Assembly: GCA_026397315.1 (NCBI GenBank)
Contig: JAPLVC010000001.1
Coordinates: forward strand, 1 to 64,000
Length of the DNA: 64,000 nucleotides
Reading direction: 5' to 3'
Source: Candidatus Aenigmatarchaeota archaeon
GTDB lineage: Archaea > Aenigmatarchaeota > Aenigmatarchaeia > QMZP01 > QMZT01
The notes under the pieces were generated by a model that was not told the DNA's origin, searched no databases, and saw only the letters and a program-made list of their open reading frames with translations. Shown in pieces: positions 246 to 58,766 of the stretch; within the stretch, counting starts at the first letter, position 1; every line of letters begins with the position of its first letter. The position numbers and the translations under genes were made by a program.

Positions 246-2963
246 TCAGAGATGCTTCAGCGTGCCTGTGAAATGCAGGACAAGCAAAACCCCGATAATG
301 GATGCAAAGGCGATAATCCCTCCCAGGAAAACGAAATTGTAAATATGTTGCCCCCGGGGTTCTTCGGTGGTGGTAATATTCGCTTCAGAAAGCTGCTCAT
401 CGGCGATTTCCTCTTCATATGCAACGCATTTGTGTCCTTCGCATTTTTGGTTTCCATGGCAGTCGCTGTCTTCGCAGCATTCATATTCAATGCAGGCGTG
501 GTTATCCAAATAACCGCAAACACATTTTATCCTCAGGCATTCGCCATCTGAGCAGTATTCGTTGTCGCTGCAATTGGAATCGTGGCTGCACCCTTCATCA
601 GCCGGGGCTGGCGGGTAATATGTCCTAGAATGTGAAGCCCCTCCCGGGCAGGAACCGCAGTCCTGAGAGCATGCGTTGCAGGTCTCGCCTGTGTCGCAGT
701 AGCTGTCGCCGCAGTAGGTCGAAGTCGAGCGGCAGAAGCTGTGGACGCAATAATCGACTGAGCACTCGATAGCAACGGTGCACGGAAGGCCTTCTGCCTT
801 TATGTCTCCCATCTTAACAGTGTGCTCCGAGCCCAGGTTAACGCTTATGTTTACCTCGGTTCCGTTCATTGTATAATTGCAATCGGGAGAGAGGCTGCAG
901 TTTGCACCGTCGAAGGTGACGAAGTAGCTGGTGGAATTCAGCTGGCCCGGCATTATAATCGTGAGGTTGGTTGCCCCCTCCCCATCGAGCACTATCTCGG
1001 TCTCGTTTCTCCCGTCAGCCGGCATGGTCGCCGAGAGTATGTCGATGTCCTCGTTGGATATGTTCTTTATCGCGGGCGTTGCTGAATAGGAGTAGGTGAT
1101 GTTGGCGTAAGATATGTCGGTGGAATTGGTGTATATGTATGGGTTGGCCGAACTCCCATTAAGTTTTATTGACATCTCGTACCACATCCAGCTGTAATCG
1201 GCGGGCCAGTCAACGCTAAAATTGAAGTTCCTCCTCGATTCAACGCCCCCTGTCTGTAAAGCAAATGTATTTACATCCGTGTCTCTGCCATAGGTGACAT
1301 ACCTTTCCGTTCCCGTTGTCCCGTTTACGCTCAACCTGTATCTTATGGAATAATTGACCTGCTCGTATATGCCGAAAATATAGTCAGGGAGTATATCGAC
1401 AGAAAACTGAATCCAGTCACCGCAATACCTGTATTCATCGGATGTCGGGGCTTCTCTCAGCAGGGATCCTGCATCAATGAATTTTTCTGACACCGGCTGG
1501 TAATGCGTCGGGAGCTGGGACCTGAAATAGTAAGTAACCGAACTTTCGGTGCCGTTGATTAAATAGATGTGTTTCCTTGCCTCGGAATTGCCCTGTGGGT
1601 CGGTTACGGTTAATAACAACGAATAGATGCCCTTTCTTGCCGGGGTAAAGCTTCCTGACACAAACGATCCCGCAGGTGAGCTCTGAAGGGAAGATTCTGA
1701 TGGGTTTAATTCCAGCTGATAGGAGCATGCGGGGCATTCGCTTCCATTCACGTAAACCATGGTGAAGTTGAAGTTAACAGCTGACCCGACAACGCCCTTC
1801 TGGGAAGATGTTGAAAAGTTGAAGAACGTTTTCATGTTCTTTGAGAGCGTGTTTGATGTGAAGGAGTTCAAATAACCGCTCGAATAAACTGCTTTCAAAT
1901 TCTTTTCAAGTGTGTTTGATACGACGGTATTATTCTCGCTTAAACCCAGTCCGTATGCGTTTGAGATTGCAGTGTTGTTGATAAGTGTATTGTTACTCGA
2001 TCCTATAGAAAATCCATCCCCAGCATTGGAGATGGCCGTGTTGTTCACTATCGTATTGTTTGATGAAATGATCCAAAAACCGTTACCTAAATTCGAATTG
2101 ATTGTGTTGTTGATTATTGTGGTGTTATCTGAGGCAGAAGTAAGCAATCCTGCTCTGCGATTCGAGCTAATTGTATTGCCCGCAATTATGATGTTGTCCG
2201 ATGAATCAATATACATGCCATCGGCTGTTGAGGCTCCGCAGCCACTGCCACTGCCAATGCATGAAGCATTGTTCAGGCTTGCAGTGTTGCTAAGAATGTT
2301 GTTATTCGGAGAAGACATCAAATATATACCGTAACTTCTGGTCATACAGCTAACTGTACACCTGGAATTGCTGTGGCTGGCATTATTGTTAACAAGCGTG
2401 TTGTTGGATGATGATTCCAGATATATCCCGTAGGAGTAGGCACCACAAAAGTTGACGCTTCCATAACTGTTGGATTGCAGGGTGTTGTTTGAGAGGAGAG
2501 AATAGGAAGATGAACTGAGATAGATTCCATAGGTTTTGGTGGGATCTCCGAAAGCCACATTGCAAACAGGCCCATACGAATTTATCGTGTTGTTTGCAAT
2601 GGTCGTGTTGTCTGATGAATTCACAGACACTCCCCGGCTGAAGTTCAGCAAAATGCAGTTGTTTATCGTGTTGTTGTCCTTTCCATCAAGATATATACCA
2701 TAGCCGCTCGTGTTGCCCGTCATGCTGTATGACTGGCAGTCAAATATCTTACTGGTGAAGTTCTCGGGGTTATTGATGCAAGTATCATTTACGGGCGTTG
2801 ATGCGTTGAGATAAACCGTATTGTAAGTGTTGTTGTTCAAAGCATTGGTGCAGTCGGTGCAGTTTGCGCAATAGAAAGCATTGCCTGATTCTGTGTAAGC
2901 ATCAACGGGATGGAAAAACAAGAGGAATATACATGCAACTAAAGCCCAATGCAAGCCCCTCAT
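246..2963 (-). CDS. Secreted right-handed beta-helix (NosD-like) surface protein with Cys-rich juxtamembrane region and C-terminal TM
   Basis: N-terminal signal peptide; repeated NNTIxNNTxxxN / SSNNTLxNN rungs; Cys-rich CxxxxxC modules; C-terminal hydrophobic helix FVFLGGIIAFASIIGVLLVL. Confidence 0.85.
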   Translation of the reverse strand: MRGLHWALVACIFLLFFHPVDAYTESGNAFYCANCTDCTNALNNNTYNTVYLNASTPVNDTCINNPENFTSKIFDCQSYSMTGNTSGYGIYLDGKDNNTINNCILLNFSRGVSVNSSDNTTIANNTINSYGPVCNVAFGDPTKTYGIYLSSSSYSLLSNNTLQSNSYGSVNFCGAYSYGIYLESSSNNTLVNNNASHSNSRCTVSCMTRSYGIYLMSSPNNNILSNTASLNNASCIGSGSGCGASTADGMYIDSSDNIIIAGNTISSNRRAGLLTSASDNTTIINNTINSNLGNGFWIISSNNTIVNNTAISNAGDGFSIGSSNNTLINNTAISNAYGLGLSENNTVVSNTLEKNLKAVYSSGYLNSFTSNTLSKNMKTFFNFSTSSQKGVVGSAVNFNFTMVYVNGSECPACSYQLELNPSESSLQSSPAGSFVSGSFTPARKGIYSLLLTVTDPQGNSEARKHIYLINGTESSVTYYFRSQLPTHYQPVSEKFIDAGSLLREAPTSDEYRYCGDWIQFSVDILPDYIFGIYEQVNYSIRYRLSVNGTTGTERYVTYGRDTDVNTFALQTGGVESRRNFNFSVDWPADYSWMWYEMSIKLNGSSANPYIYTNSTDISYANITYSYSATPAIKNISNEDIDILSATMPADGRNETEIVLDGEGATNLTIIMPGQLNSTSYFVTFDGANCSLSPDCNYTMNGTEVNISVNLGSEHTVKMGDIKAEGLPCTVAIECSVDYCVHSFCRSTSTYCGDSYCDTGETCNACSQDCGSCPGGASHSRTYYPPAPADEGCSHDSNCSDNEYCSDGECLRIKCVCGYLDNHACIEYECCEDSDCHGNQKCEGHKCVAYEEEIADEQLSEANITTTEEPRGQHIYNFVFLGGIIAFASIIGVLLVLHFTGTLKHL

Positions 2964-22440: not shown

Positions 22441-23979
22441 TCATCTCTCGAGGATGAAATACCTGTCTTCCTCGGCGTGCGGGACTTCGTCCAGCAGCAT
22501 GCCGCGCTCTTTCCCGACGCCTATCACGTCGAGCTTGCGGACATTCTCTATGGCACGGCTGAGCTTATTGTTTTTCTCGGCGTATATCTCGAAAAGCACT
22601 TCGCCTTTCCTGACCTTGTCGCCGAGCTTTTTCTTGAAATATATTCCAGCCCCCTTGTCCCTTGGGGCGCCGGCGTCCCTTGCGATTATGTCTATACCCT
22701 TATTGCTTATCCACAGCACCTTGCCTGACTTGCTGGATTTGAACTCGGCAACATATTTGCCGGAATGAAGGTCCTCGGGCTTTATGTCCGGGTTGCCTCC
22801 CTGCGCCTCGATTATTTCCCTGAGTTTCTTGTATGCCTTACCGGATTTCAGGATTTCAAGTGCGGCCTGCTTGCCGTCTTTCGCCCCTGCGAATCCGAGC
22901 AGCACGCCCGCGAGCGTCGTGGCCTTGTCGACCAGGTCGGGCGGGCCGTGGCCGTGCATGACGGTGCTGAGAGCCTCTCTCGCTTCCATCATCGGCCCGA
23001 CGGCGTGGCCGATCGGTTGGTCGGCGAAAGTCGAGATGCAATCTACCTTTATGCCTAATTTTTTTCCCAGCTGTATGAATTCGCATGCAAGATTTTCGAA
23101 TTCTTCCTTGGTTCTGATTTTCGTTTCCCTCCCGGTCGGAATATCGATGACAAGATACTTCGCGTTGACGCATTTCTTCTTGGACATGACGGACGGCAGC
23201 AAGAACGGGTCTATCGAAAGCGGGTATTCTATCTTTATGAAAATATCATCCGCCGGCGCTAAATCGACCGCTCCGCCCCATACCATGCAGGCATTGGTCT
23301 TGTTGACCACCCTGCGCACTTCATCCAGCGAGAGATTGACAGGCATGATGCATTCGACCCTGTCCGCGCTGCCCGCAGGCGACGTGATGGCTCGCGAAGA
23401 AGTCTTGGGAATTGTGAGGCCCGCTGCCGCGACAATCGGGACGACCACGATGGTCGTCTTGTCCCCGGGACAGCCGCCGATGGAGTGCTTGTCGTAAACC
23501 GCCTTGGTCCTGAGGTTGAGCGAGCGGCCCGTCTTGGTCATGGATTCCGAGAGGCTGGCGATCTCGCCCATGGTCATGCCCTTGTTGTAAAGCGACGTGA
23601 CGAACGCCGTCAGCTCTATGTCGGAAAGCCTGTGGTGCACGGTATCGACTATTATGGCATGTATTTCCTTGGGTGTGAGCGTGTGGCCGAGAAGTTTTCT
23701 TTTTATGAACGCCATCGACTTGGGCGGCGGCGCGGTCTGGACGTGCACTTTCTCGTCCGGCTTGACGTCGAGATGCTCCTGTATCTCCTCGTAAAGGCCT
23801 ATCTCGCCCTCGCGCACTATCTTCTTCGCGATGTTCACTATGGCGACTACCTTGTCCTTGCCAAAAGAAAGCTCCACCCTGTCGAGCGGCTTTATGCCCA
23901 GCTCGGCCGCGTCCTCGATGTTGAAAATGGCGACCGGCTTATCAGCTTCAAGCTGCAGGAACTTCGCGCGCAAAAACAT
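22441..23979 (-). CDS. deoA: AMP phosphorylase (thymidine phosphorylase superfamily)
   Basis: DKHSIGGCPGDKTTIVVVPIVAAAGLTIPKTSSRAITSPAGSADRVE. Confidence 0.92.
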   Translation of the reverse strand: MFLRAKFLQLEADKPVAIFNIEDAAELGIKPLDRVELSFGKDKVVAIVNIAKKIVREGEIGLYEEIQEHLDVKPDEKVHVQTAPPPKSMAFIKRKLLGHTLTPKEIHAIIVDTVHHRLSDIELTAFVTSLYNKGMTMGEIASLSESMTKTGRSLNLRTKAVYDKHSIGGCPGDKTTIVVVPIVAAAGLTIPKTSSRAITSPAGSADRVECIMPVNLSLDEVRRVVNKTNACMVWGGAVDLAPADDIFIKIEYPLSIDPFLLPSVMSKKKCVNAKYLVIDIPTGRETKIRTKEEFENLACEFIQLGKKLGIKVDCISTFADQPIGHAVGPMMEAREALSTVMHGHGPPDLVDKATTLAGVLLGFAGAKDGKQAALEILKSGKAYKKLREIIEAQGGNPDIKPEDLHSGKYVAEFKSSKSGKVLWISNKGIDIIARDAGAPRDKGAGIYFKKKLGDKVRKGEVLFEIYAEKNNKLSRAIENVRKLDVIGVGKERGMLLDEVPHAEEDRYFILER

Positions 23980-24021
23980 ATTGCAAACCCCAACATCAAC
24001 CCAATTTCAAATATAGTATTA

Positions 24022-25302
24022 TTATCTTTTGACGCCCCACTTTTTTATTGCTATTGCCAGTTCCTCGTTTTTCAGGGAGTATTCATCCAGCGAGACGCCT
24101 TTCATGTAAGCCTCGAGGGCCTGGCGCATCGCTTTCGCTCCAGCCTCGCTGCCCCACGGGTGGCCGTGCACGCCTCCGCCGGCCTGGATTATGACATTGT
24201 TGCCCATTATCTTCAGCAGTTTGGGCAGGCTGCCCGGGTAAAGGCCGCCCGATGCGACGGCGAAGACCGGCTTGACGTTGTACCAGAACTGCTCCAGCGA
24301 ATGGCCACTTCTCAGCTCAGTGACGAACTTGCTCTCAATCTCGTCCTCTATCTCGCTCGTCTCGTCACCGGACATTTTTCCGACGTTCGCGGTCCCGACG
24401 TGTATCTGGTCGACGCCGATCAGCCTCGCCAGTTTCGCTATGACCAGCATCGAAATGCCGTGCTTATTGCTCTTGGTGAAGGCCGCATGCCCTGCGCGGT
24501 GCGCGTGCAGTATCAGGTTCATCTCGTTATTGTAATTGCGCACAGTTTGCAAGCCCGACCAGCCTATCGACACGATATCGACCATCGCGTACTCGCAGCC
24601 GTGGTCCTTGACAAACTTCATCCTGCGCAGCATTTCGCTCGTCTCGGCCGTGATGTTGGGCATGTAGAATTTTCCTTCGCCCGTTTCTTCCTCGGCGCGG
24701 TCGCGCATCTTGAGCGTTTCGACGACGCGCTTTTCGAAGCGGTTGAAGCCCATGCTCGTGAGGTTCTCGTCGTCCTTCACTATGTCCAGGCCGCCGACCC
24801 ATGATTCGAAGGCGGATTTCGCATGCTCGCTTTCGCTGAGGCCGAGCTTCGGCTTCACTATCGTCCCTAGCAACGGACGTCTTTTGACGCGCAACTTCTG
24901 GCGTATGCCGGGAATGCCGAACTTCGGCCCTGAGAAGGACTTTATGTATCTTTCCGGCAGGCGGATGTCGAGAAGACGCAGGTTCTCTAATGTCTTCATG
25001 CCGAAAACGTTTCCGGCGATAGAGCTCATGAGCTGCGGCACGTTGCCCGGCTCGAACAGAGCTAGCGGATAAGAGATGCGGGCTATCTTTTCCTTCTTGT
25101 TGATAGAAAATACGGTCGGCCTGAGGTCGCGCCATATGCGCGCCTTCATCGTGCTCACTTCTGTCCACGTGCCTATGGAGCTCTCGCCTGTCAGATCGTT
25201 GCACGCCTTCTCGAATGACGTCTTGTTCGGCTCGAGATAGAATTCGGCGATAACGTCGTCCCTTGAAGGGACGTGATCAAGATCGATATACTCGTTTCTC
25301 AT
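24022..25302 (-). CDS. rbcL: Archaeal type III RuBisCO large subunit
   Basis: GTIVKPKLGL, GGLDIVKDDEN, LHAHRAGHAAFT, IHVGTANVGKMSGD, FAVASGGLYPG; catalytic residues present. Confidence 0.93.
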   Translation of the reverse strand: MRNEYIDLDHVPSRDDVIAEFYLEPNKTSFEKACNDLTGESSIGTWTEVSTMKARIWRDLRPTVFSINKKEKIARISYPLALFEPGNVPQLMSSIAGNVFGMKTLENLRLLDIRLPERYIKSFSGPKFGIPGIRQKLRVKRRPLLGTIVKPKLGLSESEHAKSAFESWVGGLDIVKDDENLTSMGFNRFEKRVVETLKMRDRAEEETGEGKFYMPNITAETSEMLRRMKFVKDHGCEYAMVDIVSIGWSGLQTVRNYNNEMNLILHAHRAGHAAFTKSNKHGISMLVIAKLARLIGVDQIHVGTANVGKMSGDETSEIEDEIESKFVTELRSGHSLEQFWYNVKPVFAVASGGLYPGSLPKLLKIMGNNVIIQAGGGVHGHPWGSEAGAKAMRQALEAYMKGVSLDEYSLKNEELAIAIKKWGVKR

Positions 25303-26787: not shown

Positions 26788-28053
26788 TCACTGGCCGTAG
26801 TCCTTCTTGCTGGAATACGTCGACTCGCCCATGTACTCGCTCTTCACCGTGTAAAACCTGTCCTCGCTTTTAGCGCCCAAGTTTATCTCGTATTTGTCAT
26901 CTTTCTCGTGCGTCTCCTCGAACGACTTTTTCACGACCATCTCAAAGATCTTGTATGGCGGGTCGATCTTCGAAATGCCTCGGTCGCTGGAGGCGAAGCG
27001 CCAGATCTCTTTGCCGTCGAGGTCGATGCAATATAAATGGCAATCCCAAGAGCCATCGTAAAGCCTGTCCTTCCATACGGCAGGCGGGCTCCATACCGGG
27101 CCGCCCGTCTTGAATCTCCAGATTTCCTTGCCCTCATTATTCAGGCAGTAAATGTTGCCGTTTTCGCTGCCGAAGTAAACCCTGTCTTTGTGGCAGGTTA
27201 TGCCGACGGCCACAAGCGCGCCGGCGTTGAAGCGCCACAGCTCCTTGCCTTTCATTGAAATGGCATAGAGTATTCCGTCCCTGGAATTGATGTATATGAC
27301 ATTGTCTTGGACGGAAGGCACGCAGCAAATGCCATACTTGCCGGTCCTGAACCTCCAGAGCTCCTTCCCGCTTCCAGCGTCGAGCGCATAGAGGTTGTTG
27401 TCCATGCAGCCGAAATACACAACGCCTTTGTAAAGCAACACGGGCAACTCGTTTATGATCTCATCGCCTGCCCTGAAGCGCCAGACTTCCTTGCCATCCG
27501 GAGTGATGCAGTAAAAGTTGCAGTCGCCCGAGCCAAAATAGATTTTTCCGTCATATGCGCTCGGGCCGCAATAGACGTAATCGCCTGTTTTGAATCTCCA
27601 CATCTCCCTGCCTTCCGCGTTAAGGCAGTAAAGGTTGCCGTCCAGCGAACTGAAATAAACCCGTCCGTCATGAAACAGCGGCTTTGTAGTCACGCCGCCG
27701 CCTGCCTTGAACCTCCAAACCAGTTTTCCCGTCTTGGCTTCCAGCGCGTATAGTGAGCCTGACATCGCCCCGATGTAGATTGTCTTGCCGTCGGACTCGG
27801 CCGAGTTGCAAGCCAGCTGGCCTTCGGCCTTGTATTTCCACACGAGCTTTCCGGTTTCGCATTCCACAGCGTAAACGTAACGGTCCATTGACCCGAAATA
27901 AACCGCACTGTCGACTATTTTCGGCAGGCAGAATATGCTGCCTCCGGGACCCACGCTGGTGGCGCGCGTCAGAAGGGATTCCCTTTTCTTGACCTCGAAG
28001 TCCTCGAGCTCCAGCTCGAAGCCGGAAAAACCGTCGTTCAGATTCGCATTCAT
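26788..28053 (-). CDS. PQQ-binding-like beta-propeller protein (8 repeats), no signal peptide
   Basis: Eight repeats of (V/I)YFGSxDGxLYCLxxxGKExWRFKTG. Confidence 0.88.
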   Translation of the reverse strand: MNANLNDGFSGFELELEDFEVKKRESLLTRATSVGPGGSIFCLPKIVDSAVYFGSMDRYVYAVECETGKLVWKYKAEGQLACNSAESDGKTIYIGAMSGSLYALEAKTGKLVWRFKAGGGVTTKPLFHDGRVYFSSLDGNLYCLNAEGREMWRFKTGDYVYCGPSAYDGKIYFGSGDCNFYCITPDGKEVWRFRAGDEIINELPVLLYKGVVYFGCMDNNLYALDAGSGKELWRFRTGKYGICCVPSVQDNVIYINSRDGILYAISMKGKELWRFNAGALVAVGITCHKDRVYFGSENGNIYCLNNEGKEIWRFKTGGPVWSPPAVWKDRLYDGSWDCHLYCIDLDGKEIWRFASSDRGISKIDPPYKIFEMVVKKSFEETHEKDDKYEINLGAKSEDRFYTVKSEYMGESTYSSKKDYGQ

Positions 28054-28113: not shown

Positions 28114-30369
28114 ATGGCTGTTTGTGAATACACGTATGACGAGGATTCGAGACGACTGAAAATCGACTGCCTCGGCTGCGTATACGGCGCGTCCGTTGAA
28201 GACTACGACTCGTGCATGTCCCTCGTCATAGACAAGCTGCTATCGAACAAGAATGTCGGCTCCATCGTCCTCGCAAAAGAGAGGGAATACGAATACAGCG
28301 GCGAGCAGGTAAAAATGCTTCTCGAGATAGCCAGGATAATCGAGGACATAGTAAGGGAGAAGACAATATCGTATTCAACTCTCAAGCCGGAGACCTGCGG
28401 GCGCTGCTATCCCGACTTCTCGCAGCGCATGCAATACATAGCCATCAATCTGCTCCGCCGCGACCCGGTCGGGGCTTATGTCGAGCTGATACGCGAGGCA
28501 CGAGAACTTTTGGTGAAAAGCGAGAGACGCGACGGCTGCAGCAAGTGCTACAGGTATTACAAGGAAGAGATAATAGACATGCTCAAGAAGAAGCTCGAGG
28601 CGACGAAGATGATACAGCTCGCCAAGCCGCATCTGTCAGGGTATCACGTCGGCTCGCGCGAAATTTACAGGCAGATATTCACGCCGAGTGTCAGGCCGAA
28701 CTTCATGCTCACGCGCTATATGATTACGCCGCCGGAAGGGGGCACGTCAGTCGACCGTTATTCTGTCGGCGATATACAAGTCGAGATATACAAGGTACCG
28801 CAGCACGCTCATTACGTCTACCACGTCGTGCCGCCGGAATTCAACCTGTCCGAGGAGAAATACGCGGTCATGGACGCGGCGAGGCGCTACATGGCGTCGC
28901 ACAGGCCTAAGACCGCGGAGTTCGTCCGTTCCGAAAAGGTTCGAGAAATCTTCTACAACATCGGCCGCGACATGCTGCGCGAGGTCGCCGACAAGATGGG
29001 CGTATACCTCACCGCTAAGGACGTCGACCAGCTCGCCAACATACTCACAAGATACACGGCCGGCCTGGGTGTGCTGGAAGTCCTGCTCGCGGACGAGAAG
29101 ATACAGGACATTTACATAAACTCGCCGGTTGAGAGCCAGCCTGTCATGATATTCCATCAGACATATCAGGAATGCCTGACCAACCTCATTCCCACGCGCG
29201 AGGATGCGGAATCCTGGGCCACTCGCCTTAGAATCCAGTCAGGCAGGCCGCTCGACGAGGCCAACCCTGTTTTAGACACGGACATCGCAGTCCCGGGAGG
29301 GAAAGCCAGGTTCGCAGTCATAACAAAGGGGTTGTCACCAGAAGGGTTCGGCTTCGCCATAAGAAGGCACAGGGACAAGCCATGGACACTGCCGTTATTC
29401 ATAAAGTCCGGCATGATGAGCCCGCTCTCGGCCGGGTTGCTGTCATTTCTTGTGGACGGCTCCGTCTCGCTCCTGGTCGCAGGAGGCAGAGGCGCCGGAA
29501 AGACAAGCGTTCTGGGAGCGCTGATGTTAGAACTGCTGCCGAAAGTCAGAATAGTCACGATAGAGGATACGCTCGAGCTTCCCATTGACCAGCTGAGGGA
29601 CTTGGGATACAACATCGAGTCGCTCAAGTCGCGCTCTGTCATAACCCACGTCGAGTCAGAAATGCCGGCAGAAGAGGCGCTGAGAACCGCGCTGAGGCTT
29701 GGTGATTCGGCGCTGATTATAGGCGAGATACGTTCGAAAGAAGCGTCAGCCCTCTACGAAGCCATGAGAGTCGGGGCGCTCTCGAACGTCGTGGCTGGTA
29801 CGATACACGGCGAGTCGCCTTACGGCGTATACGACAGGGTCGTCAACGATTTAGGCGTCCCTCCGACGAGTTTCAAGGCGACAGACATTATCATGATATG
29901 CAAATCGCTGCGCACCGCAGATGGTCTGAAGCGCTTCAGGCGCATGACCGAAGTCACGGAAGTGCGCAAGCACTGGGAGACGAACCCGCAGAAGGAAGGC
30001 GGCTTCGTCAACCTCCTGGAATATTCGGGCAAGGAAGACATGCTCAAGCCGACGGACACGCTGACGAACGGTGAATCAGAAGTTCTGAACAGAGTGGCGT
30101 CATACGTCAAGGAATGGCACGGCAACTGGGAAACCGTCTGGAGCAACATACAGCTGCGCGCCAAGATGAAAGAGTCGCTAGTTAAATACTCCGACAAGCT
30201 CAACATGCCCGAGCTCATGGAAGCTGAATGGATAACGAGTTCCAACTCGCAATACCACATACTGGCCGAAAAGTCCAGGGAAGAAACAGGCACTACGGCT
30301 CCCAAGATGATTTACGACGAGTGGGAGAAGTGGCTCAGGCTGAAAATAAAGTCAGGAAGCAAAGTCTGA
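28114..30369 (+). CDS. Type II/IV secretion (archaeal pilus, GspE/TadA-like) ATPase with Cys-rich N-terminal domain
   Basis: Walker A VAGGRGAGKTSVLGAL, IVTIEDTLELP, ALIIGEIRSKEASALYEAMRVG; N-terminal CLGC, CGRC, CSKC. Confidence 0.92.
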   Translation: MAVCEYTYDEDSRRLKIDCLGCVYGASVEDYDSCMSLVIDKLLSNKNVGSIVLAKEREYEYSGEQVKMLLEIARIIEDIVREKTISYSTLKPETCGRCYPDFSQRMQYIAINLLRRDPVGAYVELIREARELLVKSERRDGCSKCYRYYKEEIIDMLKKKLEATKMIQLAKPHLSGYHVGSREIYRQIFTPSVRPNFMLTRYMITPPEGGTSVDRYSVGDIQVEIYKVPQHAHYVYHVVPPEFNLSEEKYAVMDAARRYMASHRPKTAEFVRSEKVREIFYNIGRDMLREVADKMGVYLTAKDVDQLANILTRYTAGLGVLEVLLADEKIQDIYINSPVESQPVMIFHQTYQECLTNLIPTREDAESWATRLRIQSGRPLDEANPVLDTDIAVPGGKARFAVITKGLSPEGFGFAIRRHRDKPWTLPLFIKSGMMSPLSAGLLSFLVDGSVSLLVAGGRGAGKTSVLGALMLELLPKVRIVTIEDTLELPIDQLRDLGYNIESLKSRSVITHVESEMPAEEALRTALRLGDSALIIGEIRSKEASALYEAMRVGALSNVVAGTIHGESPYGVYDRVVNDLGVPPTSFKATDIIMICKSLRTADGLKRFRRMTEVTEVRKHWETNPQKEGGFVNLLEYSGKEDMLKPTDTLTNGESEVLNRVASYVKEWHGNWETVWSNIQLRAKMKESLVKYSDKLNMPELMEAEWITSSNSQYHILAEKSREETGTTAPKMIYDEWEKWLRLKIKSGSKV

Positions 30370-30437
30370 TTTTGCGCGGTTTGGTTTTTATGAATTTCGC
30401 GGCGTTTATTAATAAATGAAATATATTAAACACGAGT

Positions 30438-33400
30438 ATGTTGCCGTGGAGAAAGTTGTTTTTTGCATTGCTTCTGCTCTGTTTATTGCTGGCAACAGCC
30501 ACTTATGCGGATGCTAGTATCGAGTGCGACACATGCGCCCCGTGCATTAGCAGCTGCGATAATAAGTGTTATGTGGAAGGATGCTACGGTACTGCGAATA
30601 ATTGCGCGGCTTGTTATGACTGGGGGGAATACCGTTGTGACACGAGTTACTGCGGCGCGACCTGCGACGTTGTCAGCGGCTGCCCGGATACGTGCGTAAG
30701 CAGCACGCTTTACACGGGCAGGACGTGCAACACGGCATGTTCCAGCTGCTCATGCACCACTGGCTCGGCAACCGACTGCCTGACGCAGTGCGGTGGCCCC
30801 TGCACAGCGCGCACCGGATGCACTTCAGGTGCCTGCAGCGGCTTATCAGACTGTGGAGACAACACTTGCGCAGACGGGATAGGATGCACGTCAACGTGCA
30901 GTCATGCTTGCGGAGCCGAGTGCGACGTGGATGGTGAATGCACTACTGACTATTGCGCAGGCACGTGCGGCACCGGGGCGGACAGCTGCGCGTGGAGGGA
31001 TTATTATTGTACGTCTGGCTGCGCATGCACGTATGACGCATATGACGCCGACACGACTTCGGGAAGGTGCACGGGATGCAGCCAGAACTGGAACACCGGC
31101 GGCAGCGGCGACTGCACGGGCGAGTCGGGATGCACGACGGCCTGCTGCGGCGACGACTCGGGCGAGAATTACAGGACTTTCGTGGAATATGCAGGGAATG
31201 CTCACGGAGTCATGGACTGGGGAGCCAGCCAGAAAACGTGCTGCGATGCAGCCGACCAGATAAATTATAATTCACAGTGTGTTACGTCAGGCTCAGGCGG
31301 CAACGCTGTTGACACGGGATATACAGGTCATGACAAATACGGCTATCCTTACACAACAGGCTGGCTTGACCTTGACGGCCATTCCACATGGCCGGCTGTT
31401 TATGGAGCAAATGTCTGCGGTGGTGGCTGGATATACATGCTTTACGGTGATTCTACTGGAGAAAGATGCGGAACAGCCGGCGGGGACGCATGCGATGAAG
31501 ACGAAAACTATGGCTGCTGCGGCGATGATGCCGGCGAATACTATCTCTATAGACAAAATTATAATTATCCTGGCGGTGATCAAGTTGGAGGAATTACAGC
31601 AACTGCTACAGGCGATTATGCGTGTTGCGATACATCAACCGACTGCGTGTACAATAATGTTTGTTATGCTCTTTCAAGTGATTTTACTACCACTGCTTAT
31701 GATTTAGATGGCAATGGTGTTAAAGATTCATACTGCTATAATAATGGCGGTACAGGACAATGGCTAAACGTTGATAGACACCAAAGCTATTGTGATGCTT
31801 CTCCTCTTGGAAGTGGGCATTGGAATATTGGCGGAGATGCAGATGCGGAAACTAGTTACTACCAAGCCGGTGGAGGCGGCGTCTATTGCGATATAGGTTT
31901 AGCTGGTTATCCATCAAGGCAATGCTGCTGCGGCGATGATGCCGGCGAGTATTATAATACTTGTACCGACAGTTCCGCGAACGGCGACTGCGGAGCAGAT
32001 ACAACAGCGTGCTGCAGTGCAAACACAAAATGCATAGACCACACTGGCGCATGCCAATCAACAGACTCGTGTTATACATTCGGGTCAGGCGGCTTAATGT
32101 CATGGTGCAACTCCGGAACATGGGAAGACCCTGACGAAGCATCTGGCTATTGCACGGCAACTGGCTGTGCTTATAGCTGGATGTCCAATGTTCCTACCTC
32201 GGGAACTCGCTGCTGCGGTGACGACACGGGCAGCGACAACTCTTATTATTATTCGGCTAATCCTACGACTGCAACATCGCTTTCCTGCGAGCGCTGCAAC
32301 GCGGGCACTTATGCTTCCGCGAATACGTATTACGGCAACGGGTACATGCCGGGAAGCTCGACGACGAGGACTTGTTATTATGGTGACATAACGTGCAGCG
32401 CCGCGTCCGGGGCGAACGGCACTTCTATCAGTGTATATGGGTGGGGGTGGTATAATTCAAGTCTAACGACAACGCCTGCTGTAATATGCCTGAGCGGAGC
32501 GGCGACTTGTTCTGACGGCAGCGCTGCTAACGACAGCGCGAGCACTCTGTATGGCAATGGCCGTTGGTCAGGCACGGACAAGACAACCGATACGAGCGGC
32601 ACATGTTATTACGGCGACATAACATGTTCTGACGGTTCCGAAGGCAACGGCGCGTCGGCGAGCCTCATAGGCAACGGCAACTCGAACGGCTGTTCGCTTA
32701 CGACGGCGACTGGCTGCACATGCTATTATGGCGATCTAACATGCGCCGACAATAGCGCGGCCAACGGCACTTCGACAGGTATCATCGGAAACGGTAATTT
32801 GCAGGGCTCGGGAACTTCAAGGACATGCTACTATGGCGACATGGGATGCTCAGACAACTCGGCGACCAACGGGACCACGCAAACAGTTTTTGGTTGGGGC
32901 TGGTATAACGCAAGCCTGACAACTACACCGGCCGTGCTGTGTATGAGCGATGCGGCAACATGCACCAATGGCAATGCGGCAAACGATACTATAAGCATAT
33001 TGTTCGGCAACGGTTACCTTTACGGCAGCGGGACTTCCAGGGTGTGCTTTTACAACGACATAACATGTGCATCGGGCAGCGAAAACAACGGAACGTCAGC
33101 AACCGTTTACGGCTGGGGGTGGTACAACAGCTCGCTCACGACGACGCCTGCGGTAATATGCAGAAGTAACGCCGGATCATGTTCGGACGGGAGCTATGCC
33201 AACGATTCCGCCACGACGCTATGCGGCAACGGCTACTTCTCCAGTTCGGCCGCGTCGTGCAGCTCGGCCGACGCTACGTCCGCGACAAGCGGCTATTGCT
33301 ATTACGGTGACATAACTTGCTCATCCGGGAGCGAGGCGAACGGCGCGGTGAGCAGCCTCCTTTTAGGTAACGGCTACACCACCGACACTCCGGCAAGCGA

Positions 33401-36290
33401 CGCTTCAGGCACATGTTTCTACGACGACATCACCTGCGCCAACGGCAACAGCGCGAACGGGACACAGGCGACCGTTTACGGCAACGGATACGATTTCGGC
33501 GCCACATGCTATCATGGCGACTGGTCCTGCGGCGACGGGACGTATGCTAACGGCAGCAGCTGTACGATGGCGTGCAGCGGAGCTAGCGAATGTTGCACAA
33601 GCCAGAACATCTACACCGACGCTGTCGGTTGCTCCGACACTGGATGCGCGCAAACCAATCATGAAAGAGACAGCGGCTCGAGCTATTGCACGGCCACCGC
33701 TAGCGGATGCACGGCATACGACTGGAATATAGGCGGCGAGATTAACGCTAGCGTATGCTGCGGCGACGATGCTGGTGAGAACATCCTGGTAAGGTTCTGC
33801 GGTTCGTGGTGCACTTCGAACTCGAGCGACGACGCATGCTGCGACGCGGGCAGCAAGTGTGTTTATGAAAATTCATGCTACGATTCTGCTTCATGTTATT
33901 CGAACGACGCTTACTGCGACGCTGGCACCTGGCGCGACTCGGACGGAGGGCAGACATACTGCGAGGCCTGCGCCGGCGCGGGCAGGTGGAACGCGGGCGG
34001 TGAAATCTCGCCTACGACATGCTGCAGCGACGACACTGGCGAGAATTATGCGTACAGGCTTGCGGACGGAGGGATGGACAACAGCTGGGCCACGAATTCC
34101 AGCGATAACGCATGCTGCAACGCCGCGGACAAATGCGTCGCGGAAAGCGTATGCTATGCGAGCGGCTCGCGCAACGATACGGACAGCGACGGGGACGACG
34201 ACTACTGCAACGCTGGCACGTGGTATGACTGCAACACCCAGTCTGACTGTCCTGCCGGTTACGACTGCTACGGCGGCGACTGCGTCGACGTGATAGACCT
34301 TTCATATGTTTTGCCCACGCCATCGCACGACTCGGTCAACACTGACAACTCGGTCACCATAAACGTCACGGCCAACGATACTCAGGGCAACGGCATAGAC
34401 ACGTGCACGCTTGAATGGAACGGCGTGAACGAAACGATGACCAAGCACGGCAGCGGGACGTATGTCACCTGCCATTCGGACAAAGCCACGATGGCTGGCC
34501 AGAGCTACACTTTCCGCGTCTACGCGAACGACAGCGCGGGCGTGATAGAACTCGAGAACGAGAGGACGTTCGCTGAGAACACCGTACCGTCGATGATGTC
34601 GGTTTACATGAATGTCAGCTACGCCAAGAACGGCGACACCGTGATCATCGCCAGCTCAGGCGCGTCGGACGGTGATGGCGATACTTATTGCATGCGCTGC
34701 GGCAATACCAGCGGCGATGAAAACGTCTGCAATTCGACGCTCGGCTCCGGCGAAATGAACTGCACGTTCGCCAGTGCATGGAGCGGCAATTCACAGCATC
34801 CTGTTTACTGCCGCCTTTACGACGGTTATGAATATTCTTCCGAAAGCAACGCTAGTCTGACAGCGGACAACACGCCTCCGACGCCGGAACCTGCGCAGGT
34901 TTCGTCGCTAGCTCTGGGCTCGACGACAGCATCAGTGACTTCCGTTGTGGCTAGCGACAGCGGTTCCGGACTGCATGCGACTGCATACAGGTTTTATGAT
35001 GCAGGCGTATGGAGCGATTGGCAGGCTTCAAATGTTTACGTTAACTCGTCGCTAGCGCCGAACACGCAATACTGTTTCCGCGCGCAATGCAGGGACAACG
35101 TGAGCAACGTGGGAACGCAGAGCAATGAAACATGCAATTACACCCTTGCGGACCAACCGTCGATAACAAGGGTCGCATGCTATTACGGCGGCACGCACAT
35201 CTGTGTCGTAAATTTCTCCATGGCGTTGAATCCGACGGGAGTTGATTATTACATAGAAGAGACCAGCGGCAACGCCGGAGGCAGCGACGAGAACTGGACC
35301 ACGTGGTCCGGCGAGCCGTCGTATAGCGACGTGGTCTCGATGCCGCACACCCAGTATTGTTACAGGATAAAGGCGAGGAACCAGAACGATGAGGAAACCT
35401 CTTACTCCTCCGCAGTTTGCAATACCACGTATAACAACCTGCCTTCCGCTTCGAACGTGAAGACTTACGATTCCACGATGACGCAGAAGAGCTTGCTCCG
35501 CGCGGGAAGGATGATATACATAAGAGCCGACGCGACCGACGGCGACGGAGCGGGTGATATAGAAAGCGTGAAGATAAGGATACGCAACAACAACAGCGAC
35601 ATAATGGTCAACAATGCCGACATGACAGCTATTGCATCGATAACGGACGGCTACACGTACCAGTATCAATACACAATCCCGTCGAACGCCGACGGGGTAT
35701 GGCAGATCGAAATCACCGCCACGGACCTGGGCGCGGCTGAGAACGTGACTTACGCGTCTTTCACCGTAGTCTCGCTGAAGCTCAACATAAAACTCGTGCT
35801 TAACGAGACGCAAGCCAGCACCTATGTCCCGGGAGCAGGCGAAAAGAGCTTCGCTGACTTGGCTTACGCGTATTACGCCATACCGCAGAACTATTACATA
35901 ACATCGTATTATGCGGGCGCGCTTTACGGTCTCGTGTTCCAGAACCAGCAGCCGCTGGGCGTCCTGGTCGACAAAGGCGTCGATAGCGTGACGCTGGGCC
36001 TGGACCTGAAATACCCGAATTCGATAGCGTTCGTCGTGAGCTCGAAAGGCGACTGGAAGAACATGCAGAACAGGATTGGCCTGATAAACAGCGGCTCTTT
36101 CCTGCAGTTTTCGGAACCGACGTTCTCGTTCGGCCTCGGAGACAAATATCCCATGGCGATAGTGCTTAATTACGATAACATGGACATACTCGGCAGGAGA
36201 ATGGACGTCGGCAAGGGAAGCAACAATATTGCCATAAGACACGAGGGCCTTTTCGACGAGGACATAGGCCTCAACATATCGAGAAAGTGA
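30438..36290 (+). CDS. Giant (1950 aa) Cys-rich repetitive secreted surface protein with C-terminal Fn3-like segments
   Basis: Signal peptide; many repeats CYYGDITCSDGSxANGxxxxxxGNG, CCGDDAGEYY, YGWGWYNSSLTTTPAVIC; C-terminal beta-rich domains. Confidence 0.88.
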   Translation: MLPWRKLFFALLLLCLLLATATYADASIECDTCAPCISSCDNKCYVEGCYGTANNCAACYDWGEYRCDTSYCGATCDVVSGCPDTCVSSTLYTGRTCNTACSSCSCTTGSATDCLTQCGGPCTARTGCTSGACSGLSDCGDNTCADGIGCTSTCSHACGAECDVDGECTTDYCAGTCGTGADSCAWRDYYCTSGCACTYDAYDADTTSGRCTGCSQNWNTGGSGDCTGESGCTTACCGDDSGENYRTFVEYAGNAHGVMDWGASQKTCCDAADQINYNSQCVTSGSGGNAVDTGYTGHDKYGYPYTTGWLDLDGHSTWPAVYGANVCGGGWIYMLYGDSTGERCGTAGGDACDEDENYGCCGDDAGEYYLYRQNYNYPGGDQVGGITATATGDYACCDTSTDCVYNNVCYALSSDFTTTAYDLDGNGVKDSYCYNNGGTGQWLNVDRHQSYCDASPLGSGHWNIGGDADAETSYYQAGGGGVYCDIGLAGYPSRQCCCGDDAGEYYNTCTDSSANGDCGADTTACCSANTKCIDHTGACQSTDSCYTFGSGGLMSWCNSGTWEDPDEASGYCTATGCAYSWMSNVPTSGTRCCGDDTGSDNSYYYSANPTTATSLSCERCNAGTYASANTYYGNGYMPGSSTTRTCYYGDITCSAASGANGTSISVYGWGWYNSSLTTTPAVICLSGAATCSDGSAANDSASTLYGNGRWSGTDKTTDTSGTCYYGDITCSDGSEGNGASASLIGNGNSNGCSLTTATGCTCYYGDLTCADNSAANGTSTGIIGNGNLQGSGTSRTCYYGDMGCSDNSATNGTTQTVFGWGWYNASLTTTPAVLCMSDAATCTNGNAANDTISILFGNGYLYGSGTSRVCFYNDITCASGSENNGTSATVYGWGWYNSSLTTTPAVICRSNAGSCSDGSYANDSATTLCGNGYFSSSAASCSSADATSATSGYCYYGDITCSSGSEANGAVSSLLLGNGYTTDTPASDASGTCFYDDITCANGNSANGTQATVYGNGYDFGATCYHGDWSCGDGTYANGSSCTMACSGASECCTSQNIYTDAVGCSDTGCAQTNHERDSGSSYCTATASGCTAYDWNIGGEINASVCCGDDAGENILVRFCGSWCTSNSSDDACCDAGSKCVYENSCYDSASCYSNDAYCDAGTWRDSDGGQTYCEACAGAGRWNAGGEISPTTCCSDDTGENYAYRLADGGMDNSWATNSSDNACCNAADKCVAESVCYASGSRNDTDSDGDDDYCNAGTWYDCNTQSDCPAGYDCYGGDCVDVIDLSYVLPTPSHDSVNTDNSVTINVTANDTQGNGIDTCTLEWNGVNETMTKHGSGTYVTCHSDKATMAGQSYTFRVYANDSAGVIELENERTFAENTVPSMMSVYMNVSYAKNGDTVIIASSGASDGDGDTYCMRCGNTSGDENVCNSTLGSGEMNCTFASAWSGNSQHPVYCRLYDGYEYSSESNASLTADNTPPTPEPAQVSSLALGSTTASVTSVVASDSGSGLHATAYRFYDAGVWSDWQASNVYVNSSLAPNTQYCFRAQCRDNVSNVGTQSNETCNYTLADQPSITRVACYYGGTHICVVNFSMALNPTGVDYYIEETSGNAGGSDENWTTWSGEPSYSDVVSMPHTQYCYRIKARNQNDEETSYSSAVCNTTYNNLPSASNVKTYDSTMTQKSLLRAGRMIYIRADATDGDGAGDIESVKIRIRNNNSDIMVNNADMTAIASITDGYTYQYQYTIPSNADGVWQIEITATDLGAAENVTYASFTVVSLKLNIKLVLNETQASTYVPGAGEKSFADLAYAYYAIPQNYYITSYYAGALYGLVFQNQQPLGVLVDKGVDSVTLGLDLKYPNSIAFVVSSKGDWKNMQNRIGLINSGSFLQFSEPTFSFGLGDKYPMAIVLNYDNMDILGRRMDVGKGSNNIAIRHEGLFDEDIGLNISRK

Positions 36291-36345
36291 ATCGTTTCTG
36301 CGTCAAGAGTCTTGAAATATAAGCGGACTAGGACAATTAATAAAC

Positions 36346-38460
36346 ATGGTCAGCCTCTTCAAAAAAAAGAAGAACGACAGGGCAAAGGAAGAAGCATCTG
36401 AAGGCGTCCCGGACAGCATAATAAAAAGCTACCAGACGCTGCGCTTCCCGGAAGACAGGAAAGTAACGGTCACGTCGAGGGAATTCCAGCTGTTCAAGAA
36501 AAAGGAAGACATCCCGCTCACGTGGTTCGAAAGGCTCGCCGGCATTGCGGGAAAGATAATTTCCGTTAACCCGCCGGACGCGAAGACGAAAGCGGACATC
36601 GACAGCGCCATAAACTTCACCGGCATGCGCATCACGTCCAAGGACGTCACGGCGCTCGTTTATCTGACGATAATGTTTTTCGTGATTTCATCCATCATAC
36701 TCGTGGCGCTGGCTCTCATTCCTTTAATGGGCATACTGTTCATATCAGCCGCCGGAGTCGCCTTGGCGTTCTATTTCCTGAAATATCCGATCAACCAGAT
36801 GAAGATGTACAGGATCGAAGCCTCGTCGCAAGTCGTGCTGGCCATCCTTTACATGGTCGTGTCGATGCGCGTCACTCCCAATCTCGAGCAGGCGCTGCGC
36901 TTCTCAGCGGCGAACGTCACTGGTCCGCTCGCATGGGACATGCGCAAGCTGCTGTGGGACATAGAGATGGGCAAGTATTATTCCGCGTCACAAGCCATGA
37001 CAGATTACATTGCCAAATGGAAATCCGAGAACGAGGAGTTTTCTGAAGCGCTGCGGCTTATCCGCGACTCGCGCACGCACAGTTCCGAGAAGGCGGAGAT
37101 AATCCTCGACGAGGCGCTCGACGTCATACTCAGCGGCACCAAGACGCGCATGAAGCACTACGCCCAGGATCTCACGCTGCCTGTCAGCATAATACACATG
37201 ATGGGCATCGTGCTTCCGATACTCGGCAGCATCATGGCGCCGCTAGCGGCCGTCTTCCTTTCCGACATCGCGAAGCCGGAATATTTCTTCGCGCTTTACG
37301 ACGTCATCCTGCCGATATTCATCATATGGTTCATCAACTCCATCCTGAAGAAGCGCCCGACTACATTCTCGCAGGTCGACACTTCCATGCATCCCGACCT
37401 CCCGCCGCAGGGCAGCTTCAGCGTGAGGATTGGCAAGAAGAAAGTAAATCTTCCAGCCATGCCGTTCGCCTTAATCGTGGGCCTCGCCTTCATCCTGCCG
37501 GCGCTGCTTTTCTTCGCGGCGAACCCGGAATCCATAATCTCGGCGAAAGGGACGCACGACATAGTGTCCATGGTCATGTCCATGATGCTGATATTGGGAG
37601 GGGCCTTCGGCATCGCGACTTATTGCATACTTTCCAATTTCCAGCGCATAAGCATACAGGACGACGTGCTGAAGACGGAGAGCGAGTTCGAGATGGCGCT
37701 GTTCCAGCTGGGCAACAGGATTTCCGGCGGCATACCGCCCGAGCTGGCCATAGAGAAATCCGCCGACGACGTGAAAGACCTGAGCATTTCCGGCCTCTTC
37801 ACGATAACGATAAGGAACATGAGAAACCTCGGCATGACATTCAGGGAGGCGCTGCTCGACGAGAAATACGGCGCGATACGCTACTACCCGAGCAACCTGA
37901 TAAGGAACATCATGTTCATGGTCGTGGACATAGCCAGAAAAGGCGTCAAATACGCCGCCGAGGGCATGCTCACCGTCTCGAAATACCTGCGCAACATCCG
38001 CGAGACGCAGGAATACATCCGCGACCTGTTACAAGAATCGGTGTCGTCGATGAAGTTCCAGGCCTACATGCTCACCCCGATGGTAACGGGGCTCATAGTC
38101 TCGATGGCCCAGATAATCATAAAGGTGCTTGCCATCCTCAGCTCCAAGCTGAGCAGCCTGAGCGCGGGCACCGACATGCCCATAAACATCAGCGGCGGCC
38201 TGATGGGAGGCGGCGACATGTCCAGCACAGTCTCGCCGGAGATATTCCAGATAATCATAGGCATCTACCTGATAGAAATAATAATAATCCTCGCCATGTT
38301 CATGACCAAGATATCACAGGGAGAGAACAAGGTCTACATGTGGTACACTGCTGGCAAGATGTTAATCGTAGCGGTGGTCATGTACTTCCTGGTCGCGCTC
38401 GGAGCTTCGACGATGTTCGGCGAGCTCATAGCCAGCGCGGTCGAGGGCATAACAGGATGA
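36346..38460 (+). CDS. Type II/IV secretion system platform (GspF/TadC-like) membrane protein
   Basis: Duplicated T2SSF-like halves with multiple TM; located downstream of pilus ATPase. Confidence 0.88.
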   Translation: MVSLFKKKKNDRAKEEASEGVPDSIIKSYQTLRFPEDRKVTVTSREFQLFKKKEDIPLTWFERLAGIAGKIISVNPPDAKTKADIDSAINFTGMRITSKDVTALVYLTIMFFVISSIILVALALIPLMGILFISAAGVALAFYFLKYPINQMKMYRIEASSQVVLAILYMVVSMRVTPNLEQALRFSAANVTGPLAWDMRKLLWDIEMGKYYSASQAMTDYIAKWKSENEEFSEALRLIRDSRTHSSEKAEIILDEALDVILSGTKTRMKHYAQDLTLPVSIIHMMGIVLPILGSIMAPLAAVFLSDIAKPEYFFALYDVILPIFIIWFINSILKKRPTTFSQVDTSMHPDLPPQGSFSVRIGKKKVNLPAMPFALIVGLAFILPALLFFAANPESIISAKGTHDIVSMVMSMMLILGGAFGIATYCILSNFQRISIQDDVLKTESEFEMALFQLGNRISGGIPPELAIEKSADDVKDLSISGLFTITIRNMRNLGMTFREALLDEKYGAIRYYPSNLIRNIMFMVVDIARKGVKYAAEGMLTVSKYLRNIRETQEYIRDLLQESVSSMKFQAYMLTPMVTGLIVSMAQIIIKVLAILSSKLSSLSAGTDMPINISGGLMGGGDMSSTVSPEIFQIIIGIYLIEIIIILAMFMTKISQGENKVYMWYTAGKMLIVAVVMYFLVALGASTMFGELIASAVEGITG

Positions 38461-58217: not shown

Positions 58218-58766
58218 ATGGCAGGAATATTCGACCAACTGGTCCAAAACATGTCGAGAATGGGTTTCTTCCAGTTCTTATTTCCGTTCCTGCTCGCTTT
58301 GGCGATAGTCTACGGACTCCTGACATGGGCACTTGAAAAACAGATACCCAAGTCTGCTAGGGCGTTGGTTTCACTGATAGCGGCATTCTTCGTGATGCTG
58401 TACTCCAGCTGGAACGTCATGGTTGTGCAGTTCTTTGCCAACCTTTTCGGTCCATTCTTGGCGGTGGCCACGGGCATACTAGTGATAGTAATGCTGTTCG
58501 CTCTGGTCGGCTTCAAGGTTGAAACGCTCACCCAGGGGAAGTACAGCAAATGGGTACTAGTCTTGCTGATGGTATTCATTGGCATCGTGCTTTTCTTCGG
58601 AGCAGGCGCATCATACCTTATAGACGTGCCAGGATTTGCCATGAACTCTGACTTCTTTACAGTGATATTCTTCATCATAATACTCGCTGTAGTGATGTTC
58701 TGGCTATCGAAAGAAGGCGAGGGTGGCGGAAGCGCAGCGACGCCTACGACTGGAGGAAAGTCGTAA
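58218..58766 (+). CDS. Small multi-TM protein (paralog of 56945 gene)
   Basis: MAGIFDQLVQNMSRMGFFQFLFPFLLALAIVYGLL; TATA-like acttataaagg upstream. Confidence 0.65.
   Translation: MAGIFDQLVQNMSRMGFFQFLFPFLLALAIVYGLLTWALEKQIPKSARALVSLIAAFFVMLYSSWNVMVVQFFANLFGPFLAVATGILVIVMLFALVGFKVETLTQGKYSKWVLVLLMVFIGIVLFFGAGASYLIDVPGFAMNSDFFTVIFFIIILAVVMFWLSKEGEGGGSAATPTTGGKS

Follow-up and report, generated by a model that had tools for sequence, protein, structure and literature searches.

A cysteine-rich secreted protein encoded between pilus-type ATPase and platform genes of an Aenigmatarchaeota archaeon: a candidate exchangeable adhesin

The locus and the encoded protein

The gene occupies positions 30438..36290 of the + strand of the window, which is the whole 64,000-nucleotide stretch of DNA that was analysed. 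It is a single open reading frame (ORF), from ATG to stop, and encodes a protein of 1950 amino acids. The N-terminus is MLPWRKLFFALLLLCLLLATATYADA, a signal-peptide-like hydrophobic segment. The predicted signal peptide comprises residues 1-26 (30438..30515, with an approximate cleavage site) and is the sole hydrophobic peak of the protein; no transmembrane anchor was found after it (maximum Kyte-Doolittle value 1.34 in 19-residue windows). Residues 27-1300 (30516..34337) are arrays of Cys-rich modules that recur in other genomes and elsewhere in the same genome, and within them lies a repeat array of the CYYGDITC...GNG / GWGWYNSSLTTTPAVIC type (residues 646-1040, 32373..33557). Ig/FN3-like beta modules follow at residues 1301-1775 (34338..35762). 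They were assigned from a match to PF09294 at residues 1531-1569 and from an AlphaFold2 model of residues 1675-1950; this weak FN3-type match is the only Pfam match above cut-off in the protein. The last segment, residues 1776-1950 (35763..36287), is a conserved C-terminal domain, termed CTD here, which is delimited by alignments. All of these features lie on the + strand.

The protein contains 145 Cys residues. Of these, 131 fall within residues 1-1310, where they make up 10.0%, and the final 640 residues hold the other 14. Among 116 sampled proteins of at least 100 aa from the same genome, the median Cys content is 0.88% and the 95th percentile is 4.0%, and this protein is the most Cys-rich above 400 aa. 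The CYYGDITC-type motif is present seven times, C-x-DG-S-x-(A)N(G/D) 11 times, C(C)[GS]DD[AST]GE five times, and GWGWYN[SA]SLTTTPAV[IL]C three times. DNA repeat searches detected neither tandem arrays nor direct repeats of at least 40 bp in the gene, so the motif repeats have diverged in DNA and are kept at the protein level. The first-pass annotation of this DNA had described a single ORF with a signal peptide, very high Cys density, repeat families, and C-terminal beta domains. The ORF, signal peptide, and Cys density agree with that description, the Ig/FN3-like modules and the beta-rich CTD correspond to its beta domains, and its repeat families are found as protein motifs, with the correction that no DNA repeat of the above size underlies them.

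The Cys-rich modules are shuffled extracellular modules. A 72% identical copy of the N-terminal module is present in the same genome in a subtilisin fusion (PF00082, 2.8e-38) with a hydrophobic N-terminal segment (contig C6:162006-165533, L066:12007-15534), and an approximately 52% identical copy is present in a membrane-anchored protein (C3:135403-139524). Cys modules of the 1950-aa protein also occur in G034, G033, G036, G038, and other genomes. The sole match in public genome contigs is a contig labelled Nanohaloarchaea (L007) that, at 3.5 kb, is too short to show the gene neighbourhood. Viral contigs contained no relative of the module. As to disulfide oxidoreductases, for which a search had been suggested, DsbA-like thioredoxin-fold genes (PF13462) are present in eight of the nine genomes of the family, including this one, and VKOR is present in none of the nine and was rejected as a disulfide partner. 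Given the roughly 10% Cys and the DsbA-like genes, the formation of many disulfides in the Cys-rich part is plausible.

Two further ORFs of this kind were observed. One, at window 246-2963 (- strand), encodes a 905-aa protein of the beta-helix/NosD type that starts with a signal-peptide-like segment, contains 4.4% Cys, and ends in a hydrophobic C-terminus; it is another candidate Cys-rich surface protein. In addition to the 6286-aa protein described below, the genome G036 contains a giant ORF of at least 9000 aa (G036:C7:102957-129998; L152, L153) that is masked as N in part and includes Ig-like modules and a Cys-rich stretch.

The upstream neighbour is a 751-aa secretion/pilus ATPase of the TadA/FlaI type (28114..30369, + strand; PF00437, 1.6e-18), separated from the Cys gene by 68 bp. 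It is TadA-like (1.8e-37), yet it scores under every NCBIfam family cut-off, far below those of the equivalogs, which places it on a separate branch of its own. Every one of the 41 searched genomes of the order has an ATPase homolog, and full-length orthologs are 54-83% identical. The downstream neighbour, after 55 bp, is a 704-aa platform protein of the TadC/GspF type that is double-T2SSF-like and has approximately nine predicted transmembrane segments (36346..38460, + strand). It has no Pfam match of its own; its close orthologs match T2SSF with values of about 1e-4, which do not pass the curated cut-off, and orthologs are present in 9/9 family genomes. A T2SSE ATPase is thus paired with a T2SSF platform, as in type IV pilus (T4P)/T2SS-like systems.

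Two TATA-box-like stretches, which are weak evidence for promoters, were noted on the + strand: TATTAATAAA at 30407..30416 and AAATATAAGC at 36315..36324. Each lies at -31..-22, approximately 27 bases ahead of the start codon, of the Cys gene and of TadC, respectively. AT content at -31..-22 is mildly raised across 76 starts of this genome. Both genes may therefore have leaderless promoters and separate transcripts of their own, and co-transcription is not assured. The earlier proposal of a pilus ATPase and a TadC gene on either side is confirmed. Its T2S/T4P operon is partly supported: the arrangement with these flanks is conserved, and an operon as such cannot be claimed in the window.

Several other features of the ATPase and its surroundings were recorded. 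In G037, G017, G016, and G022 (L061, L063, L060, L075), the ATPase contains an in-frame insertion of approximately 500 aa near residue 487, just past the Walker A region, with one insertion near residue 542 instead; it looks like an intein. In G026, the ATPase gene looks split. A PQQ/BamB-type beta-propeller gene (window 26788-28053, - strand) is divergent from the ATPase gene, and a 54-56% identical copy is found at the matching position in G039 and G033. A 182-aa membrane protein (window 58218-58766, + strand) is encoded 28 kb from the ATPase in this genome. In other families of the order, its homologs (50-56% identical in family f5) precede the ATPase by two or three genes, and it is possibly a further part of the machine. 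At window 22441-25302 (- strand), an AMP phosphorylase gene adjoins a RuBisCO-like large subunit gene, both named by eye from the sequence. This AMP-salvage type arrangement is also adjacent in L068, L136, and L146.

The slot between ATPase and platform genes in relatives

The interval between the ATPase and TadC genes, referred to here as the slot, is filled outright by a CTD-bearing secreted protein in three genomes of the family: this genome (G000), G036, and G040. The occupant is the 1950-aa protein in G000 and a 201-aa CTD protein in G040. In G036, it is a 6286-aa protein with 6.4% Cys and the CTD at its end, whose gene has a 4-bp overlap with the ATPase stop and ends 51 bp ahead of TadC.

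Contig evidence fills the slot in three more genomes, where contig breaks at the slot genes limit full reading. In G034, a 51-55% identical homolog immediately precedes TadC; it is at least 954 aa long and truncated by the contig end. The G034 ATPase lies at the end of another contig, and the CTD-TadC half is what is seen. G038 has a CTD protein of at least 978 aa before TadC, with the ATPase at a contig end. G037 has, on one contig, the ATPase, a 202-aa CTD protein, and an ORF of at least 1698 aa that runs off the contig and contains subtilisin and laminin-G modules, and, on another contig, a CTD protein of at least 2837 aa before TadC. The two G037 pieces are probably one gene. The G035 contig ends upstream of TadC.

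Two genomes have an empty slot, with the ATPase directly beside TadC: G039, where the gap is 30 bp, and G033, where the genes overlap. G039 is the sister of this genome on the ATPase+TadC tree, on which the slot content is most simply explained by a single gain at the family's base followed by two losses; some nodes of this tree have support of 56-65. In families f3 and f4, ATPase and TadC are adjacent and CTD genes are located elsewhere. The slot is conserved, and its contents are variable and dispensable. The empty slots and the f3/f4 arrangement indicate that the Cys protein is an accessory and not a core part. The first-pass annotation had pointed to synteny in relatives and had named adjacent ATPase and TadC genes, with this gene elsewhere, as evidence against its view. 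CTD proteins in the slot are found in relatives, and half of the opposing pattern is found as well, since the two genes of G039 and G033 are adjacent without the insert.

The C-terminal domain and its link to pilin-like genes

The CTD is the last ~175 residues and is common to the slot proteins (alignments A1/A2/A5). Its consensus is ...VYIPGxGE...YLASY...GLVF...FLVFTxGDW...FL...PSFxxGLG.... Of the 41 genomes of the order, 37 contain the domain, as do 84 of the 158 genomes of the class, which is equivalent to the phylum here. It is located at the extreme C-terminus in all 66 extracted ORFs, with a tail of 0-29 aa. The proteins can be sorted into short copies (37, or approximately 40%), which consist of a signal peptide and the CTD and are about 195 aa in length, and long copies (49), in which the CTD is preceded by Cys arrays, laminin-G, laminin-G/sialidase-N, FG-GAP with beta-helix, or Ig modules. 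A short and a long CTD gene are paired on one contig in eight genomes, and in several of these a small pilin-like gene adjoins the pair or separates its members.

AlphaFold2 modelled the CTD with a pLDDT of 86.6 alone and 86.0 together with the preceding Ig-like module (residues 1675-1950). The predicted fold is beta-rich, with about a dozen strands and one main helix. A profile search against PDB sequences gave no match. Pfam gave none for the copy in this protein and none common to the family (37 members), in which matches are weak, scattered, and mostly of Ig type (for example, MG2 and Big_7). A fold search of the PDB with the CTD alone returned nothing at E <= 0.001 (best E 0.034). Five matches at E <= 0.001 to the Ig+CTD model were rejected as generic beta-sandwich pairing, with TM to the query of at most 0.27 and rmsd of at least 12 A. 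A search of a limited literature collection found no description of the CTD or of an ATPase-CTD protein-platform locus.

In distant families, CTD genes lie beside genes for small proteins with class-III-like signal sequences. One such pilin-like family, A3, is present in 112 of 158 genomes, mostly as one strong match. Of the 55 genomes that have both, 27 carry an A3 gene no more than 5 kb from a CTD gene, against approximately 1.1 expected by chance under uniform placement in an assumed 0.85 Mb genome. These 27 genomes belong to seven families, the safer count as genomes within a family are not independent. The two are not close in 28/55, in some cases owing to short contigs.

In this genome, the A3 gene belongs to a pilin-like gene cluster on contig C5 (L193:8347-11208), and in family f1 it is clustered with further pilin-like genes. 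For the last pilin-like member of the C5 cluster, the match to PF07790 (Archaeal Type IV pilin) exceeds the cut-off in G039 and falls short of it in this genome. A second CTD protein of this genome is encoded in a surface-protein cluster on contig C7 (G000:C7:163000-177600, L067), together with small pilin-like proteins and, approximately 2 kb from the CTD gene, a 938-aa DUF2341 + laminin-G protein. Another ATPase, two T2SSF platform proteins, and pilin-like genes of their own are also found on C7. The CTD is tied to motor and platform in this family and, in other families, to pilins, so motor, platform, pilins, and CTD proteins are likely to form one machine.

Interpretation and comparison with known systems

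The Cys-rich protein is proposed to be a disulfide-stabilised, exchangeable adhesin that docks through its CTD to a T4P-like machine, a reading to which a probability of roughly 0.5 is assigned. The protein would be exported via Sec, as its signal peptide suggests, and stiffened by many disulfides. It would be retained at the cell surface by the CTD and not by a membrane anchor. The CTD would dock to the machine composed of the adjacent ATPase and double T2SSF platform, with pilins from the separate C5 cluster. The N-terminal ~1600 residues would be the variable working part, probably a long and rigid stalk that is rich in Cys and carries ligand-binding modules, and the CTD would be the constant connector, which would also be made as a stand-alone secreted subunit. 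Physical docking, a location at the tip, adhesion, and a host as target are all inferred from gene neighbourhood and predicted structure.

This reading is drawn from the CTD being C-terminal in 66/66 ORFs with everything before it interchangeable, from the family slot that holds CTD proteins, from the A3 linkage in 27/55 genomes outside the family, from the short and long gene pairs in eight genomes, and from the lack of a transmembrane anchor together with DsbA-like PF13462 genes in 8/9 family genomes. Several points count against this reading. Neighbourhood is not contact, and the evidence is genomic and from predicted structure. Docking lacks a structural precedent, since the fold of the CTD was not matched. 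G039 and G033 have nothing in the slot, and the CTD and A3 genes are apart in 28/55 genomes. VKOR is missing from all nine family genomes, and the TATA-like stretches leave co-transcription uncertain. Finally, the second ATPase-platform set on C7 has its own pilin-like genes, and the pairing of motor and pilins is ambiguous. The first-pass annotation had placed the protein as cargo, adhesin, or distal part of a pilus or secretion apparatus and had suggested a possible role in host-cell contact in an episymbiont. The slot and the pilin linkage make the placement reasonable, with the qualification that the protein is accessory and absent from two relatives.

Of the other explanations, the one that survives best, though it is judged unlikely, is a general surface protein (sheath or S-layer-like) with the CTD as a wall or S-layer anchor, in which proximity to pilus genes reflects a shared surface neighbourhood. 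CTD copies do occur among other surface genes without a nearby A3 (L129, L130, L135, L162), stand-alone CTD genes lie near housekeeping genes (L136, L146), and the Cys modules are reused in the membrane-anchored protein and the subtilisin fusion of the same genome. However, this view has difficulty with the linkage to the mostly single-copy A3 in about half of the genomes with both and with the exact insertion, in several genera, between motor and platform. Improbable by comparison is T2SS-like cargo, with a pseudopilus driven by the ATPase and platform pushing CTD-tagged proteins out and the CTD acting as a sorting signal, as in type IX secretion. The constant C-terminal position, the fully exchangeable passengers, and the giant size of some (up to 6286 aa) would fit, but stand-alone CTD proteins without a passenger are frequent, the linked genes are pilin-like, and no type IX C-terminal sorting domain matched in Pfam or NCBIfam. 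Neither an outer membrane nor a secretin is generally expected in an archaeon, which also counts against such export. Very improbable is the accidental insertion, between ATPase and TadC, of a gene that encodes an unrelated secreted protein and has a promoter of its own. The two empty slots and the TATA-like stretches would allow this, but it is largely refuted by the recurrence of the occupied slot (three genomes outright and three by contig evidence), the 4-bp overlap in G036, and the one gain and two losses that are simplest on the tree, some nodes of which have support of 56-65.

If the docked adhesin is taken as the preferred reading, the CTD may, more tentatively, be a new pilus-docking domain used across the phylum, often in the form of two subunits, one short and one long, so that one machine displays exchangeable adhesins ranging from a bare cap to a 6286-aa Cys-rich fibre. 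It is still to be explained how DPANN-type archaea, to which this lineage probably belongs as judged from its genome size (approximately 1 Mb), relatives, and gene content, recognise other cells and hold on to them; earlier candidate adhesins were called mainly by size or domain content. The CTD is an easily recognised marker for finding giant, Cys-rich surface proteins tied to a pilus-like machine. Its proposed role predicts binding to the linked pilins or the platform, which is testable in vitro, and one family offers a natural series of slots that are empty or hold 201, 1950, or 6286 aa.

The two flanking genes are a motor-platform pair like TadA/TadC and FlaI/FlaJ, with the difference that the ATPase is below the NCBIfam cut-offs and the 704-aa platform is below the Pfam threshold. 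SPEARE proteins of Nanohaloarchaeota (PMC6642349) are giant surface proteins of DPANN archaea that combine several domains, among them adhesion and serine-protease modules, with a transmembrane segment and a restriction-enzyme-like end in the cytoplasm. Giant size and some modules are shared, as in the G037 ORF with subtilisin and laminin-G that follows the short CTD gene. The 1950-aa protein differs in being tied to a pilus locus; it has no transmembrane segment past the signal peptide and no restriction-like Pfam match, and was not assigned to the SPEAREs. Large DUF2341 "PilY-like" proteins of archaeal T4P loci have been proposed as tip adhesins (Makarova et al. 2016, PMC4858521). They are likewise large secreted proteins in archaeal pilus loci; DUF2341 (PF10102) is absent from the 1950-aa protein, which was therefore not placed among them.

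The closest parallel is to PilY1/PilC, the soluble secreted tip adhesins of bacterial type IVa pili, which have an ordinary signal peptide, a variable N-terminal region, and a well-conserved C-terminal domain that in PilY1 is a modified beta-propeller, and which are often encoded with minor pilins (PMC7541494). The CTD proteins are similarly soluble and secreted, with a constant C-terminus and a variable N-terminus, whose exchangeability is proposed here, and they cluster with pilin genes, although this linkage is seen elsewhere and not in this window. A position at the pilus tip and the priming of assembly, as in PilY1, would be further parallels. Membership in PilY1 was rejected, as Pfam found no Neisseria_PilC beta-propeller in the full protein or in 37 CTD family members and no propeller was matched in the PDB. 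The CTD is instead a ~175-aa domain of beta-strands and a helix without a Pfam or confident PDB match, and the part N-terminal to it can exceed 6000 aa. Tentatively, the CTD proteins could be a structurally unrelated archaeal counterpart of PilY1.
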